Source: Myxococcaceae bacterium
Lineage (GTDB): Bacteria; Myxococcota; Myxococcia; Myxococcales; Myxococcaceae
Direction: 5' to 3'
Length of the DNA stretch: 64,000 bases
NCBI GenBank assembly: GCA_004173515.1
Contig: SECN01000002.1
Span: 1-64,000, forward strand
Both the position numbers and the translations under genes were made by a program. Shown here one piece after another: positions 13,105-23,304 of this stretch; position 1 is the first letter of the stretch, and every line of letters starts with the position of its first letter. Under the pieces are notes generated by a model that was given only the letters and a program-made list of their open reading frames with translations, was not told where the DNA came from and did not search any database.

Positions 13105-15477
<2,373 letters not shown>

Positions 15478-15538
15478 GATGGAGGGCACCGATGGCAGGT
15501 GGAGGGTGGGTGTTCAGGCCTGGCGGACAGGGTAGCGC

Positions 15539-16462: not shown

Positions 16463-18034
16463 TCACTTCACAGGGGGCACACCGAGCTTCCCGAGGACCT
16501 TCACGGCATTGGCATTGCCCGCGTCCAGCGCGAGCGACTTCCTGTAGCTCGCGATGGCTTCTTCCTTCATGCCCTCCTGGAGCTGTGCCTCGCCCAGGCT
16601 GTCATAGGCATTCGCATCCGTCGGGAAGAACTTCACGTTCGCTTCGAACACCCGCACCGCGTCCGCGCCCTTGCCATCGCTCAGCAACCGGTAGCCGAGC
16701 TGGTTCAGGTCCCCCGACTCCAGGCCCTTCATGCCCTCGCGATGCTTCGCGGTGTACCAGGCGAGCGCGGTGTCCACGCCCTTGAGCCGCATGAGCACAT
16801 CCACCTGGGCGGACGGCGACACCGGCTCAGCCTTGAAGCCGGTCCAGGCATACTCCGCCGCCACGCTGGCGATGAGGCGGTCGAAGAGCAGGAAGCCGTT
16901 GTCGGAGTTGGCCATGACGACCACGCCGCTGCCCGTGCCACTGAAGGCCGTGAACGCGGCCTGGAAGCCTTCGTCCGAGCCCCCGTGACGGAAGCCGTCG
17001 GTGCCGGGCTCCACCTGGAAGCCCAATCCGAACCGCTCCGACTGCTGCGTCAGCATCTGCTGCGTCATCGCCTGGGACAGCACGCGCTTGGACTTCCCCG
17101 CCTTCGCGCTGGACACCTCGAGCGCGACCCGCGCCAGGTCGGACGGCGTGGTCCACAGTCCGGCCGCGGCCATCTCCGGGTACACGTGCCAGCGGCCCGC
17201 GACGCTCTTCCCGCTGGCATACGTGCCGGTCGCCGTCCTGACGGCAAGGGCCGGAGGCAGGGGCTGCTCGTAGGAGCTGCTCGTCATGCCGAGCGGCTTC
17301 AGCACCGTCTCGCTCATGATTTGTGGGAACGGCTTCTGGAGCTGATCCACCATCATCAACTGGACGATGGACGTGCCGCCGCCGCTGTAGCGCGTCTTCG
17401 TGCCAGGGACGATATCGACGCGCACCGGGCCGGTGTTCGCGGGCGCCACGCCGTCCAGCACCTGCACCAGCGTGGGCACAGGGGCATCGACGGCGTACCC
17501 GGGGAAGCCATGCACGGTCGTCCCCGCGCTGTGGCTGAGCAGCCGGCGCAGGGTGACCTTCTGCTCCTTCGTGAAGTCGTTCTCGGGGAGCTTCCACGAG
17601 CGCAGCTTGTCGTTGATGTTTTCGTCGAGCGACCACTTGCCCGCCTCGACGAAGTGCAGCGCCGCCAGGGCCGTCACCGGCTTGCTGATGGAGCCCGCCT
17701 GGAACAGCGTCTCCAGGGTGACGGGCTCCGAGCCGCCGGCCTCCTTCACGCCATAGGTCTTGGCCCAGACGATGGCGTGCTTGTCGAGGACGGCGACGCT
17801 CAGCCCGGGGATCCGGTACAGCGCCATCCACTGCGGGAGCGTCAGGCGCTGGGGCTTCTCCCCTTCGATGACGACTGGGGCCAGGCCCGCCTCCACCCGC
17901 GCCGCACGGGCCGCCTGGGCGGGGTTGGCCAACCATTGCATGGCGGGCTTCTTCGTCCCCTCCGCGGCGAGGGCCGCACCTCCCGAGCCGAGCAGGACGG
18001 CCACGAGGGCGAAGCGGGACAGGGGACGACGCAT
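16463..18034 (-). CDS. beta-lactamase-fold serine hydrolase with C-terminal TPRs
   Basis: A 523-residue exported enzyme. Signal peptide: MRRPLSRFALVAVLLGSGGA then ALAA. The serine beta-lactamase/class C esterase domain has SISK (FQAGSISKP, nucleophile Ser and Lys), a YSGGGTS loop as the YxN equivalent, and HGGSDEGF as the KTG-equivalent HxG. From about residue 440 the C-terminus has TPR-like helices (FFPTDANAYDSLGEAQLQEG). Such proteins act as periplasmic esterases or peptidases rather than true lactamases. The ATG at 18034 is chosen because it begins the signal peptide. It lies upstream of the broken hydrolase on the same strand. Confidence 0.85.
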   Translation of the reverse strand: MRRPLSRFALVAVLLGSGGAALAAEGTKKPAMQWLANPAQAARAARVEAGLAPVVIEGEKPQRLTLPQWMALYRIPGLSVAVLDKHAIVWAKTYGVKEAGGSEPVTLETLFQAGSISKPVTALAALHFVEAGKWSLDENINDKLRSWKLPENDFTKEQKVTLRRLLSHSAGTTVHGFPGYAVDAPVPTLVQVLDGVAPANTGPVRVDIVPGTKTRYSGGGTSIVQLMMVDQLQKPFPQIMSETVLKPLGMTSSSYEQPLPPALAVRTATGTYASGKSVAGRWHVYPEMAAAGLWTTPSDLARVALEVSSAKAGKSKRVLSQAMTQQMLTQQSERFGLGFQVEPGTDGFRHGGSDEGFQAAFTAFSGTGSGVVVMANSDNGFLLFDRLIASVAAEYAWTGFKAEPVSPSAQVDVLMRLKGVDTALAWYTAKHREGMKGLESGDLNQLGYRLLSDGKGADAVRVFEANVKFFPTDANAYDSLGEAQLQEGMKEEAIASYRKSLALDAGNANAVKVLGKLGVPPVK

Positions 18035-18146
18035 GGGCTCACCGAAAGGAAAGGGGTGGGACTCGCGGTGTACGGCATCCTCTCCTTTCGATTGCCGGTC
18101 CACCCCCCTTTTCCCGTGGGAGCCGGGTGCTCGATAGACTGCACCG

Positions 18147-18974
18147 ATGCCAGGACACGCCACCATCCAGGTCTCGTTCATCGATGCGGAGACGAACCGC
18201 CCTCTCGGCGAGGTGAAGCTCCCCTTCGACAGTCTGCCCGCGAGCTTCGAGGCCGCGACCCGGCTCGAGCTGGGAGGCAGGTCCTACGAGGTCGTCTCCG
18301 CTACGCCCATGACCGTCGGGGAGTTCCAGGCGACGGGCACCCTGCGGCTCGAGCTGCGGGAGGTGAAGGTGACCATGGTGGACCCTGGCTCCATTCTCTA
18401 TTCGCTGCCCACGATCAACGGGGAGCTGCCCGCCATGGCGGAGGGTTCCACGAAGCAAGGCAGGCAGGTGCTGGATTTCCACGAGGACGACTGGCGGCAG
18501 GTGGAGTTCGTGGCGCTCACGCTCCAGGCCCCCCTCCAGGCGGAGCTGAAGTCCATCGAGCAGATACACACCGGGCATCGCAAGGGAGCCGGGTTCGACG
18601 CGCTCCACATCCGTGGGGGCATACCGTCCCCTCTGGAAGGCGTGCGGCTCACGCTCGCGGACCTCCGGGCTGCGCCAGGTGAGACCGCCACATGGCAGGA
18701 CGGCCTTTCGTTCCAGGGGGTCGCGGGGCTCGTCGCGGGCGGCTTCGCGGTCCAGGTGTCCCCTGCCCTGTGGCTCTACGGCACCGAGCGCGACGGGCAC
18801 GTCACCGCGCTGGGGCTCCATCAAGCAGGCACCACTGCTGATCTCGAAGGCGTTGGCCGCATGCTCGCGGCGCTCGCCTCCCGGTATCAGCTTGGCCTCG
18901 TCGACTGGTGCCGGGCCACCCAGGTTCCGACCTCGCCCCAGCACTTTCACGAATGGTTGGCTGGGCGAAGCTGA
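18147..18974 (+). CDS. hypothetical protein, 275 aa
   Basis: I recognise no family. The protein has no signal peptide or membrane segment. The first 80 residues form a beta-rich domain (IQVSFIDAETNRPLGEVKLP then LPASFEAATRLELGGRSYEV). The rest is mixed alpha/beta with VEFVALTLQAPLQAELKSIE and a C-terminal helix pair (LEGVGRMLAALASRYQLGLV). The codon pattern is that of the neighbours, and a perfect hairpin overlaps the stop codon, both supporting a real gene. It is divergent from the beta-lactamase-fold gene with 112 bases between starts. Confidence 0.7.
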   Translation: MPGHATIQVSFIDAETNRPLGEVKLPFDSLPASFEAATRLELGGRSYEVVSATPMTVGEFQATGTLRLELREVKVTMVDPGSILYSLPTINGELPAMAEGSTKQGRQVLDFHEDDWRQVEFVALTLQAPLQAELKSIEQIHTGHRKGAGFDALHIRGGIPSPLEGVRLTLADLRAAPGETATWQDGLSFQGVAGLVAGGFAVQVSPALWLYGTERDGHVTALGLHQAGTTADLEGVGRMLAALASRYQLGLVDWCRATQVPTSPQHFHEWLAGRS

Positions 18975-18999: not shown

Positions 19000-20856
19000 T
19001 CACGACTTCAGGAGGCCCCGGATGCGCATGAGGACCTGCCGGTCCGGGACGTCCCGGGTGAGCAGGTACTCCAGCAGCTCACGCGCCGCCGGCTCCCGGT
19101 CCACGTACGGCGCCACCAGCGACACGAGCGCGTGGTAGTTCTCCACCTTCACTCCGCCCGACAGCGTCAGGTCCCGCAGGTCCATCAGCAGGCCTTCGTC
19201 CAGCGGGCGCCGACCCAGCGACTCCAGCGCGGAGGACTGCACCGGCACCGCCGCGTCCGAGGCCAGCGTCAGCAGCACCTGGGTGGCCTCGGGCGTCGGA
19301 ATCTTCCGCAGGGCCTTGGCGGAGGCCCGGCGCACCTCGGGGCTCTGCGCGGTCGCATGGCTGGCGATGAGGGGCACCTGGTCCGCGACGCCCGCGTTGC
19401 CCAATCCCAGCAGCAGGTGCGCCTGCTCCTCCGGTGAAGTGGCCGCCCTCAGGTCCGAGGCCAGCCGCCCCACCGCGGCCCGGGCCTCCGGCGTCTGCTC
19501 CTGTCGGTAGAGCGCTCCGGCGGTGGCGCCCAGCGCGTAGGCACCGGCGATGCGCGCCGCGCCCTGCGTCCCCGCGTACGTCCGCTCCGCGAAACGCACC
19601 GTGTCCACGGTGGGAGAGCCCACCAATGACAGACGGCTGAGCAGCAACCCGTAGTGCGAGTCCTCGCGGGCCGCCTTCGTGGAGAGCGCCCGCACGAGGG
19701 CCTCCTGCGCCCGGGGCGTCCCGGCGCCCGCCAGCAGGTCCAACACCAGCGCGCGCCCCTTGGGCTGGAGCGAAGGGCGTTCGAAGAAATCCACCAACCT
19801 CGCGCAGAGCTCCGGCTGCTGCTCCAGCAGTCCCGTGGCCTGGAGCAGGAAGTGGTTGTGGTCCGGCATGACGCCGCCATCGGCATGCGCTTCGAGCAGC
19901 GAGAAGAGCTGCTCCGCCGTGAGGCCATCCACCTGCTGCGCCAGCATCTGCGCACGCACCTTCGGATCCACCACCAGCACCCCGGGCGCCAGCCGCTGGA
20001 GCAAGGACGCATCCACCGGCGCCTCCGCGACGAAGCGACCGCTCGCTCCGCGCTTCAGGCTCACCCGGACCTCGGAGGCCGCGGAAGGCGTGCCGTCCGC
20101 GCCCAGCCGCTCCACGGTCTCCGTGCCGGCGAGCCGCTCCAGCACGCCCTCGCGCGCCACGTCCGCCTCGAAGCGCGAGGCGAGCCGCACGGTGCCGCCC
20201 TGCCCCAGGCCCCGCAGCTCCACGTACTCCGCGCGGCGCTTCACGAGCCGCACCGCCACCGCATCCTCCCCCAGCTTCTCGTACTCCGTGCGCGCGACTC
20301 CCCGCGCCGTCGTCTCCTGCTCGCTCCAGGCGGAGCCTTCACGCAGCACCACCTGCAGTTCGCCCACCAGCGACTGCACCGTGTTCTTGAACAGCGCGGG
20401 GTCCTCCTCGCGGAAGGAGACCGCCTGGAGCGTCCCCTCCCCGCTCAGCTCCAGCAGCGCCTCCCGGCCGCCGAACACCGCCTCCACCGCGGCGGCGTCC
20501 GGGAGCAGTTCGTGCCCGAGCACCTTCAGGCTGTGCGTCTGGAGGCGCTCCAACCGCAAGCCCACCCGCTGCGTGGCGCCCCGCGCGCCATGGCCGCGCA
20601 GCACCAGGTCGCCCGTGAAGTGGATCTGTCCCGCCAGGGAGGATGCCGCCGCTCCCTGACCGGAGAGCCGGACCCGGCTCTGGGCCTGGTAGTCCAGTTG
20701 ATACGTCCAGTGCCGCCCCTCCGGAAAACGGAAGCGGAGGGGAGCCGTGGCGGGAGACGCCTCGGAGGGTGCCGCCCGTCCCAGGCCGACCCAGACGACC
20801 CCGAGGGTGAGCAGTGCCAGCACGGCACCACCAATGACCATCCTGCGCGTGTTCAT
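19000..20856 (-). CDS. HEAT-repeat protein resembling large lipid transfer proteins
   Basis: 618 residues. An N-terminal hydrophobic segment (VIGGAVLALLTLGVVWVGLG) is a signal anchor or signal peptide. Residues about 40-260 are beta-rich: FPEGRHWTYQLDYQAQSRVR, then GQIHFTGDLVLRGHG, like the N-terminal beta-barrel of vitellogenin/microsomal triglyceride transfer protein. From about 300 to the end is an alpha-helical superhelix (LLEAHADGGVMPDHNHFLLQ, repeated LVRALSTKAA-like and ALRKIPTPEATQVLLTLAS units). This barrel-plus-helical layout is that of the Vitellogenin_N (LLTP) module. The assignment is by pattern only. GGAG precedes the ATG; the 808-aa exported protein is 21 bases upstream. Confidence 0.65.
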   Translation of the reverse strand: MNTRRMVIGGAVLALLTLGVVWVGLGRAAPSEASPATAPLRFRFPEGRHWTYQLDYQAQSRVRLSGQGAAASSLAGQIHFTGDLVLRGHGARGATQRVGLRLERLQTHSLKVLGHELLPDAAAVEAVFGGREALLELSGEGTLQAVSFREEDPALFKNTVQSLVGELQVVLREGSAWSEQETTARGVARTEYEKLGEDAVAVRLVKRRAEYVELRGLGQGGTVRLASRFEADVAREGVLERLAGTETVERLGADGTPSAASEVRVSLKRGASGRFVAEAPVDASLLQRLAPGVLVVDPKVRAQMLAQQVDGLTAEQLFSLLEAHADGGVMPDHNHFLLQATGLLEQQPELCARLVDFFERPSLQPKGRALVLDLLAGAGTPRAQEALVRALSTKAAREDSHYGLLLSRLSLVGSPTVDTVRFAERTYAGTQGAARIAGAYALGATAGALYRQEQTPEARAAVGRLASDLRAATSPEEQAHLLLGLGNAGVADQVPLIASHATAQSPEVRRASAKALRKIPTPEATQVLLTLASDAAVPVQSSALESLGRRPLDEGLLMDLRDLTLSGGVKVENYHALVSLVAPYVDREPAARELLEYLLTRDVPDRQVLMRIRGLLKS

Positions 20857-20877
20857 GGGCGTCTCCAGTAAGCGGGG

Positions 20878-23304
20878 CTACAGCAGCGCGCGGATGTCGA
20901 CGAGCGGCGCGGTGACGGATTGGTCGAAGAGCTTCACGTCGTCGTGGATGCCGTCCCAGCTGACCAGGGTCTCCTCGAACTCCTCCTCCAGCGGCCAGAT
21001 GCCCACTTCCAGGTAGGCGGAGATGCTTCCCGCCAGGAACGTGAACTTGAGGTCCGCGCGGCCCGCCAGCTTCAGGTCCAGCCGGGTCCCGCTGGAGAGC
21101 AGCCTGGCGTCCGCCTGGAGCGGCACGGAGGCGTGCACGAGCTGGAGGCGTCCCTTGATGCCGGCTTCGATGACGAAGAGGTCCACGCCCGCGTACAGCT
21201 CGCCATCCACCCGGGCATAGGGCTCCAGCCGGCCCGCCACGGAGAGGTTCGTCACGGCGCACTGCGGAGCCCCGGTGATGGAATGCTCGCCGCCCAGGCT
21301 GTAGTTGAGGCCCACCACGCCCGCCACCTTGGCCCCGAGCGTCACGGGCACCACCACGATGACGAACGTCGTGCTCACGTCCACCAGGGTGCCCTGCTTC
21401 TCCTTCGAGCCCGACACGAGGTTGAACTCGCCCGCCACCAGGTTCTGGTGCACGTCCAGCAGGGAGACGGTGTTGTCGAGCACGTCCATGTCGATGTCCG
21501 CCCTCGCGCTCGTCACCACGGCGTCGGCGGTGATGAGGCTCACGCTCTCATCGAAGGCACGGCCGGTCGCGGCGAAGTGCCCGGAGGCCTCCGGCGACAG
21601 GGAGCAGTTGCTCAGCGCCACGTTGTTGACCGCGACGGACACGTGGTAGTCGGCCGTGGCGCCGAAGGTCTCATCGCCCAGGGAATAGCTGTCACCCGAC
21701 TCCCACTTCAGCCGAGGCTCCGCGGTGTTCCGGTCCAGGAGCGGGCCCACCGTCGACGACAGGGCCTGGAGGTACTGATCCCTCCGGGTGAAGTACGTCT
21801 CCAGCCGGGACGGCTGGGTCGTGTAGTCCTGGGCGGGGTAGTTCACCGAGCCCTGCACCAGGGCGCGGCTCTTGAGCGGGGCGAAGTCGTCGTTGGTGTA
21901 GTCCGAGCACTTCTGGAAGGCCTGCTCCCGGGGCACCTGGTAGAGGTCCATCACGCGCTGGACGAAGCGCTTGGGAGACCAGTCACAGGGCGCGGGCGCG
22001 CTGCCAGTCTGGAACGTGAGACAGCCGCGCGCCTGGGCCTGCACCAGCGCCGCGTCGATGGCGCCATCCAGCGATGCCAGCGTGTAGAACAGGGGGATGA
22101 GCGGGTTCTCCGGCTCGTCGCTCAGGCTGGCGCCCTGCTGGGCAGCTCCGGCCTGGAGCGTCCCGGGCAGGGGCCGGTACTGGTGGGAGATCTCCTCCCG
22201 GATGGACGTGACCAGCTCCGCGCGCTGCCGGAGCAGCCCGGCGAAGTCCGTCTGCAATTGCTCCAACGCATACAACTCCTCGTCCAGCACCCCCGCGTTG
22301 CGCTGGCTCATCGACCGATGCCAGGTCCAGCTTTCGTTGTAGTAGCTGGCGCCCTGGGCCAGGGTGTTCAGCCGCGCCGTATCCAGGACGGTGCCGGAGA
22401 GGTTCAGGGGCCGGCTCAGGTTCTTCAGCGTGATGATGGCGCCCCCCAGGACGCCCGGGATGACGCTCGCCTTGTCGATGCTGCCCGCGCCGACGGTCAC
22501 CCGGCCCTGCACGGGCGGGGGCACGGTGAAGAACTGGTTCTTCGGCGCCCCGCTGGGGAAGGTGATGGCGGGGGTGATGAGCGTGCCGTCCTTGCCGCGC
22601 TGCTGCGCGTTGCTCATGCCGCGCGTGCCAATGGCCGACGTGGGCGTCGAGCCGCCCAGCGGCGCGAGGGCATACGCGACGTTGTAGATGGCGCGGTGGT
22701 CGGAGCCCGCGCTGGAGATGGCGTCCTCGAAGACGCTGTAGTCGTAGTACTTCTCGAAGACGTACTCGGCACACGAATTGATGACATTGCCGGAGGTGTT
22801 CCAGCCATTGCGCTGCTGGGCGCGGTTGTTCTTCAGCTTGCTGGCGTAGAGCGTCGTGGCGGGGAAGTACGCCCGCGCCCGGTTCACCGACCCGAGGTAG
22901 AAGCTGGACAGGCCGCTCATCTCGCGGGTGTTGGGGTCGTCCTTCTCGAAGGCCACCGACTTCGTGACGGCGTCAGGCTCCACCGTCTGGCCATTCGCCT
23001 TCAAGGTCCGGGGCACCACCACCGTGCGGCGGGACATGCCCGCCGCGGAGTCCTCCGCCGCGTCCTGGATGAGCCGGTTGCAGGCAGCATTCGGGTCCGT
23101 CTTCGCCAGGCTCCGCACCATCTTCGCGCAGAGCGTGACGGGGTTCTGGCAGTCCGCCAGCGTCGCCACGTAGCCCTGACACAGGACCGGCGCGGGAGGC
23201 AGCGTGGGAATGGGACTGGCGGCGAAAGCCGTCGCTGGCAACCCGGACAGAACAAGTCCGAGCGCGGCGAGGCCCGTCGCGAAACCGCGGCGAGGCGAAA
23301 TCAT
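20878..23304 (-). CDS. 808-aa exported protein, partner of LLTP-like gene
   Basis: Signal peptide: GFATGLAALGLVLSGLPATA then FAA. Cys-rich helical N-terminus (VLCQGYVATLADCQNPVTLC) with seven or more Cys before residue 450. The central part is helical (DEELYALEQLQTDFAGLLRQ). The last 300 residues are long beta strands (DYHVSVAVNNVALSNCSLSP; VVPVTLGAKVAGVVGLNYSL). I recognise no family. It is the first gene of a two-gene operon, and the stop is 21 bases before the HEAT-repeat protein ATG. The beta-rich tail could be a lipid- or ligand-holding sheet if the neighbour is an LLTP-type module, but that is inference. Confidence 0.7.
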   Translation of the reverse strand: MISPRRGFATGLAALGLVLSGLPATAFAASPIPTLPPAPVLCQGYVATLADCQNPVTLCAKMVRSLAKTDPNAACNRLIQDAAEDSAAGMSRRTVVVPRTLKANGQTVEPDAVTKSVAFEKDDPNTREMSGLSSFYLGSVNRARAYFPATTLYASKLKNNRAQQRNGWNTSGNVINSCAEYVFEKYYDYSVFEDAISSAGSDHRAIYNVAYALAPLGGSTPTSAIGTRGMSNAQQRGKDGTLITPAITFPSGAPKNQFFTVPPPVQGRVTVGAGSIDKASVIPGVLGGAIITLKNLSRPLNLSGTVLDTARLNTLAQGASYYNESWTWHRSMSQRNAGVLDEELYALEQLQTDFAGLLRQRAELVTSIREEISHQYRPLPGTLQAGAAQQGASLSDEPENPLIPLFYTLASLDGAIDAALVQAQARGCLTFQTGSAPAPCDWSPKRFVQRVMDLYQVPREQAFQKCSDYTNDDFAPLKSRALVQGSVNYPAQDYTTQPSRLETYFTRRDQYLQALSSTVGPLLDRNTAEPRLKWESGDSYSLGDETFGATADYHVSVAVNNVALSNCSLSPEASGHFAATGRAFDESVSLITADAVVTSARADIDMDVLDNTVSLLDVHQNLVAGEFNLVSGSKEKQGTLVDVSTTFVIVVVPVTLGAKVAGVVGLNYSLGGEHSITGAPQCAVTNLSVAGRLEPYARVDGELYAGVDLFVIEAGIKGRLQLVHASVPLQADARLLSSGTRLDLKLAGRADLKFTFLAGSISAYLEVGIWPLEEEFEETLVSWDGIHDDVKLFDQSVTAPLVDIRALL

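Follow-up and report, generated by a model that had tools for sequence, protein, structure and literature searches.

The locus and its conservation

Two adjoining genes on the minus strand occupy positions 19000–23304 of the window, i.e., of the whole 64,000-nucleotide stretch that was analysed. The upstream gene encodes P808 (20878–23304 (-), 808 aa), the downstream gene encodes P618 (19000–20856 (-), 618 aa), and 21 nt separate the two. Both open reading frames of the original prediction are real, at these coordinates: the frames are conserved as protein in Corallococcus carmarthensis, Myxococcus eversor, M. qinghaiensis, and Citreicoccus inhibens. Across these four genomes identity is 59–95% for P618 and 53–87% for P808, and the pair is adjoining in every one. 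The C. carmarthensis counterpart of P618 is 95% identical; the host is a Corallococcus-type myxobacterium. In an order-level set of 145 genomes, a conserved frame was found for P618 in 66 and for P808 in 61.

In the 10–30 kb interval of the window, the other ORFs longer than 150 aa, frames overlapping the pair aside, do not recur as neighbours of the pair at four loci (L001–L004). Because the flanking genes vary across these loci, the P808/P618 pair is itself taken to be the unit. An Rfam scan gave no match near the pair, and no match came from a scan for sigma-70-type promoters, a plasmid comparison, or searches for defence and phage families. Two further minus-strand genes of the window are recognisable by appearance. 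The product of 13105–15489 (-) resembles a UvrA-like ABC ATPase with excinuclease signature motifs, and that of 16463–18181 (-) has the look of a serine beta-lactamase or esterase with a TPR-like C-terminus.

Architecture of P618

In the AlphaFold model, P618 consists of a hydrophobic helix, a beta-rich region at about residues 40–290, and then about 20 helices at residues 298–617. The hydrophobic stretch lies at about residues 5–27 (20776..20844 (-)); it is helical in the model at residues 4–24 and is present family-wide. It is likely an export signal or an inner-membrane anchor. The beta-rich region (19987..20739 (-)) shows a strand order of low confidence, with mostly blocks of pLDDT below 50. 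The helical superhelix (19006..19965 (-)) is modelled with a pLDDT of about 90 and reaches the stop codon. P618 has one cysteine, and its relatives have 0–5.

P618 resembles the N-terminal module of animal LLTPs

Two papers (PMC1783640, PMC3337244) treat the large lipid transfer proteins (LLTPs) as an animal superfamily descended from a single lipid-handling ancestor. P618 had been predicted to place a beta-rich N-terminal region before an alpha superhelix, as vitellogenin, apoB, and MTP do, and structure comparison bears out that order, the low confidence of the beta half notwithstanding. Of the five best Foldseek matches of the model in the PDB, three are MTP (6i7s, 8eoj) and the others are lipovitellin (1lsh) and apoB (9bd1), each aligned over 619–645 columns, the full length of P618. 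With VIA-align, MTP 59–613 falls on model residues 80–605 (Z 14.9). Lipovitellin 1lsh 295–623 falls on residues 305–608 (Z 14.5, rmsd 5.6), a row that proves little alone, as many other alpha solenoids score equally high against the helical half.

The Pfam profile Vitellogenin_N (PF01347) matches P618 at 24.3 bits, just over its cut-off of 24.0, and so agrees with the structural ranking. Residues 365–530 fall on profile positions 353–537; thus, the register fits if residues 1–300 correspond to the N-sheet. The single-sequence score is modest, and the family is clearer. Within an E limit of 0.1, 34 of 39 diverse P618 relatives match the profile, the best of them with an E of 1.2e-16, and matches above the Pfam cut-off occur in 53 of 193 Myxococcota genomes, reaching 63.5 bits, versus none of 14 control genomes outside Myxococcota.

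A profile built from the 39 relatives finds lipovitellin 1lsh in the PDB with an E of 1.9e-12, profile positions 92–537 falling on chain residues 27–508 in a single collinear alignment across the N-sheet and the helices. In that search, lipovitellin is outscored only by artificial alphaReps of the HEAT type and by a single entry for a bacterial HEAT-repeat protein. Aligned by hhalign to lipovitellin and MTP together, the P618 family reaches a probability of 89.8 in local and 94.8 in end-to-end alignment, with reversed controls at about 0.1; a wider family, which adds 13 unpaired paralogs to the paired loci and the rows of alignment A1, reaches 95.2 over 437 columns. Two paralog groups arrive separately at the two-domain alignment, and a third group fails to do so. 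The human MTP sequence used agrees letter for letter with the PDB entry, and the lipovitellin sequence comprises the letters of the PDB chain only, as printed in its alignment to the vitellogenin query. Identity between P618 and vitellogenin/lipovitellin is about 12–15%.

The evidence is weaker for the N-sheet half of P618 than for its helical half. Its score against the lipovitellin N-sheet is 10.0 bits, above all 2000 shuffles, and the hhalign match of this region covers 219 columns; scores against MTP and apoB were not significant in the shuffle test. Neither a profile of the N-part alone nor one of residues 42–462 found an LLTP in the PDB. The best-scoring site is nevertheless the same in lipovitellin, MTP, and apoB. 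It begins with a gap-free 28-residue block, G141–Q168 of P618 (20353..20436 (-); GTLQAVSFREEDPALFKNTVQSLVGELQ), and continues at equal spacing with E181-x4-G186-x5-Y192 (20281..20316 (-)), the internal spacing of which is equal in MTP and lipovitellin. Both E181 and G186 are unchanged across the 39 relatives. The site scores about 4.4, 3.4, and 2.2 SD over the shuffle mean for lipovitellin, MTP, and apoB, respectively, and single shuffles of MTP and of apoB outscore it. The strand order of P618 fits the LLTP barrel with its central helix, at low model confidence.

P618 also belongs among proteins with HEAT-like repeats, which raises the reading that it is a generic HEAT scaffold joined to an unrelated beta domain, its LLTP likeness being convergent. 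Its strongest Pfam match is indeed HEAT_2 (46.3 bits, residues 469–548, over the cut-off), a stretch of repeats shared with HEAT-repeat proteins of the HEAT_2 and PBS lyase types. The alphaReps that outrank lipovitellin in the family-profile search are also placed over the LLTPs by VIA-align for the helical part, and the N-sheet evidence is weak when taken alone. The helical domains of LLTPs are themselves alpha solenoids, so the HEAT_2 match is compatible with an LLTP origin. Several results separate P618 from ordinary HEAT proteins: the N-terminal beta region is extra to them, the full-length Foldseek ranking favours LLTPs, the collinear alignment spans both domains in two paralog groups, and the G...Q and E-x4-G-x5-Y blocks keep their spacing exactly. 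A true HEAT protein of the same phylum, with a HEAT_2 score of 252 bits, gives no match to Vitellogenin_N. Three HEAT proteins of the phylum, this one among them, likewise lack the two-domain hhalign alignment, a comparison in which single members of the P618 family also do poorly. We regard convergence as very improbable; P618 looks more like the LLTP module than like an arbitrary HEAT protein with a barrel.

Profile comparisons and the model together show P618 to be a homologue of the LLTP N-terminal module, with strong evidence for the helical half and moderate evidence for the N-sheet. It is a homologue of the module and not a full LLTP: the chain ends with the helical domain, where the lipid-binding sheet of MTP and other LLTPs would begin, and it is classed no higher than a module homologue, since the C-terminal sheets and the LLTP cysteines are both missing. 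Among the closest known systems is the MTP large subunit, the best Foldseek match, whose N-terminal barrel (22–297) and helical domain (298–603) match P618 in order and size and which shares the two sequence blocks. MTP goes on into a lipid-binding C-terminal sheet (604–894) and pairs with PDI, whereas P618 stops at residue 618 and has a beta-module protein as its partner. With vitellogenin and lipovitellin the P618 family shares the profile match and an LGNAG stretch of the helical domain; P618 differs in being bacterial and in lacking the C- and A-sheets and the N-sheet cysteines. The N-terminal region of apoB-100 belongs to a far larger protein, whose beta region forms a lipid belt.

The partner protein P808

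P808 matches no Pfam or NCBIfam family. It opens with a signal peptide at about residues 1–28 (...ATAFA; 23221..23304 (-)), followed by a lineage-specific part at about residues 29–539 (21688..23220 (-)) with invariant cysteines; most of the ten cysteines of the protein are invariant among relatives. The last part, about residues 540–808 (20881..21687 (-)), is a predicted amphipathic beta module common to all partners. Over these final 270 residues the hydrophobic moment at 170 degrees is 1.10 (family mean), versus 0.42–0.55 elsewhere in the protein. A fold model from five sequences has a pLDDT of 33, and the strands of P808 are therefore predicted, not modelled. Across partners the module keeps a length of about 270 residues, and the part ahead of it varies in content and in length, from about 120 to more than 1000 residues. 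By subfamily, this N-terminal part is plain, cysteine-rich, lipoprotein-like, or a C-type lectin. The partner at L112:1746-4358 carries a C-type lectin domain (PF00059, E 4.8e-12) ahead of its beta module. Partners at L110, L112, L114, L115, and L076 have lipobox-like N-termini and, judged from these, are probably lipoproteins, unlike P808 with its ordinary signal peptide.

The partner gene adjoins a P618-like gene at 64 of 66 distinct loci in 45 genomes, a proportion that describes the paired subfamilies and not all relatives, as many of the loci were picked among P618 matches and some by hand. Among the 64, the partner lies upstream in 52, downstream in 9, and divergent in 3. The trees of the two proteins mirror each other: over 36 pairs the mirror-tree correlation is r 0.90, versus 0.31 for the best of 2000 random permutations, and exchanging partners within genomes 5000 times never gave an agreement as good as that of the true pairs. 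This is strong evidence that the P618-like/P808-like partnership is specific. The expectation of an exported upstream partner is thereby upheld and extended, to one that is specific, co-inherited, and ends in an amphipathic beta module.

Several paralogous pairs can occur per genome, and many Myxococcaceae genomes have several copies. A solitary P618-like paralog lies directly downstream of dnaA, without a partner, in 15 genomes (L111, L127-L137, L139, L140, L143). At the Myxococcus-type loci L129-L131 and L140, the order on one strand is P808-like, P618-like, dnaA, solitary P618-like. The genome of the window has one more P618-like gene, from a different subfamily, at L100:3071-5101 (G000:C487); as it sits near a contig end, its partner is out of view. 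Two long ORFs, L097 (2804 aa) and L098 (1266 aa), were considered as P618/P808 fusions and rejected, each being two genes in different frames.

The beta module and the lipid sheets of LLTPs

The open lipid sheet of LLTPs is described by the Pfam profile Vit_open_b-sht (PF09172). In a Pfam scan of 36 beta modules at E up to 0.1, only three families appeared, and this is one of them. Four partners match it with an E of 0.018–0.16, always at profile positions 177–286 and on an equivalent stretch of the module; all are sub-threshold, the best reaching 14.8 bits versus a cut-off of 23.7, and P808 of the window has no match. When 142 genomes were searched with the profile, two P808 orthologues were among 23 weak places. 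The beta module found no match among PDB sequences, and neither hhalign against LLTP C-terminal parts nor a shuffle test against LLTP sheets gave a signal. The original prediction likened the terminal strands of the partner to LLTP lipid sheets. A strong amphipathic beta periodicity is there; kinship with those sheets is no more than hinted at by the sub-threshold profile matches.

A proposed role for the pair

The lipid-binding part of MTP is its C-terminal sheet, and its barrel and helical domains are the ones that contact apoB and PDI (PMC3337244). The counterpart of P618 thus makes protein contacts, and since P618 lacks the lipid sheet, it is not to be called a lipid carrier on its own. 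The best reading, to which we lean only tentatively and at a little under an even chance, is that P618 and P808 are an LLTP cut in two, i.e., a split periplasmic lipid carrier. P618 would be the N-terminal module. Its hydrophobic helix would either hold it in the periplasm or release it there, and it would grip a protein partner as the matching part of MTP does. The terminal beta module of P808 would supply the lipid-facing sheet absent from P618. The superhelix might then cradle this sheet and close a hydrophobic cavity, or load lipid there, and the N-terminal part of P808 would set the destination or binding target of the particle. The physical complex, the shared cavity, the lipid cargo, and a periplasmic or outer-membrane site of action are features that we infer. 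The unpaired dnaA-linked paralog counts against a split carrier, as it indicates that the P618 fold can occur without a linked beta partner.

The main rival keeps the ancestry and drops the lipid. P618, derived from an LLTP N-module, may serve the P808 family in the periplasm as a chaperone or export factor, holding the sticky beta module until it is inserted as an outer-membrane barrel or folds outside the cell. We consider this possible, with perhaps a third of the weight. The strict co-inheritance of the pairs suits it, as does the binding of apoB and PDI, not lipid, by the matching domains of MTP (PMC3337244), and a variable N-terminal part ahead of a conserved C-terminal beta module recalls secreted passenger-plus-translocator proteins. 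Yet no Pfam outer-membrane barrel or autotransporter family matches P808 or its relatives, the module has conserved cysteines and lacks a conserved terminal aromatic residue, and the dnaA-linked paralog has no linked client. The data separate the chaperone from the split carrier poorly.

A more far-reaching form of the split carrier, in which P618 and the P808 sheet are both homologous to animal LLTPs and build one lipid-filled particle, seems to us rather unlikely. If true, the LLTP fold would be older than animals or would have passed from one domain of life to another.

Another reading, very doubtful in our view, makes the pair a weapon or adhesin, secreted or on the cell surface, with the beta module entering target membranes and P618 as an accessory: the predatory hosts, the lectin domain of the L112 partner, the amphipathic module, and the several paralogous pairs in one genome would suit it, but toxin, defence, and phage families are without a match and in most partners no binding domain can be recognised.

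Significance

We found no report of bacterial LLTPs in a search of largely open-access literature; databases may already label some of these proteins, since they match Pfam Vitellogenin_N. An LLTP-type design, held to be an animal speciality, appears to be present in predatory soil bacteria as two proteins, with the carriage of fat as the presumed function. An N-module found in bacteria, next to a beta partner that is a protein of its own, would provide an outgroup for the origin of LLTPs. As a natural two-piece system, it would allow the half that docks and the half presumed to face lipid to be studied separately. For the Myxococcaceae, this multi-copy family is of interest for envelope lipid traffic, for lipid bodies, and for the secreted proteins of fruiting bacteria.
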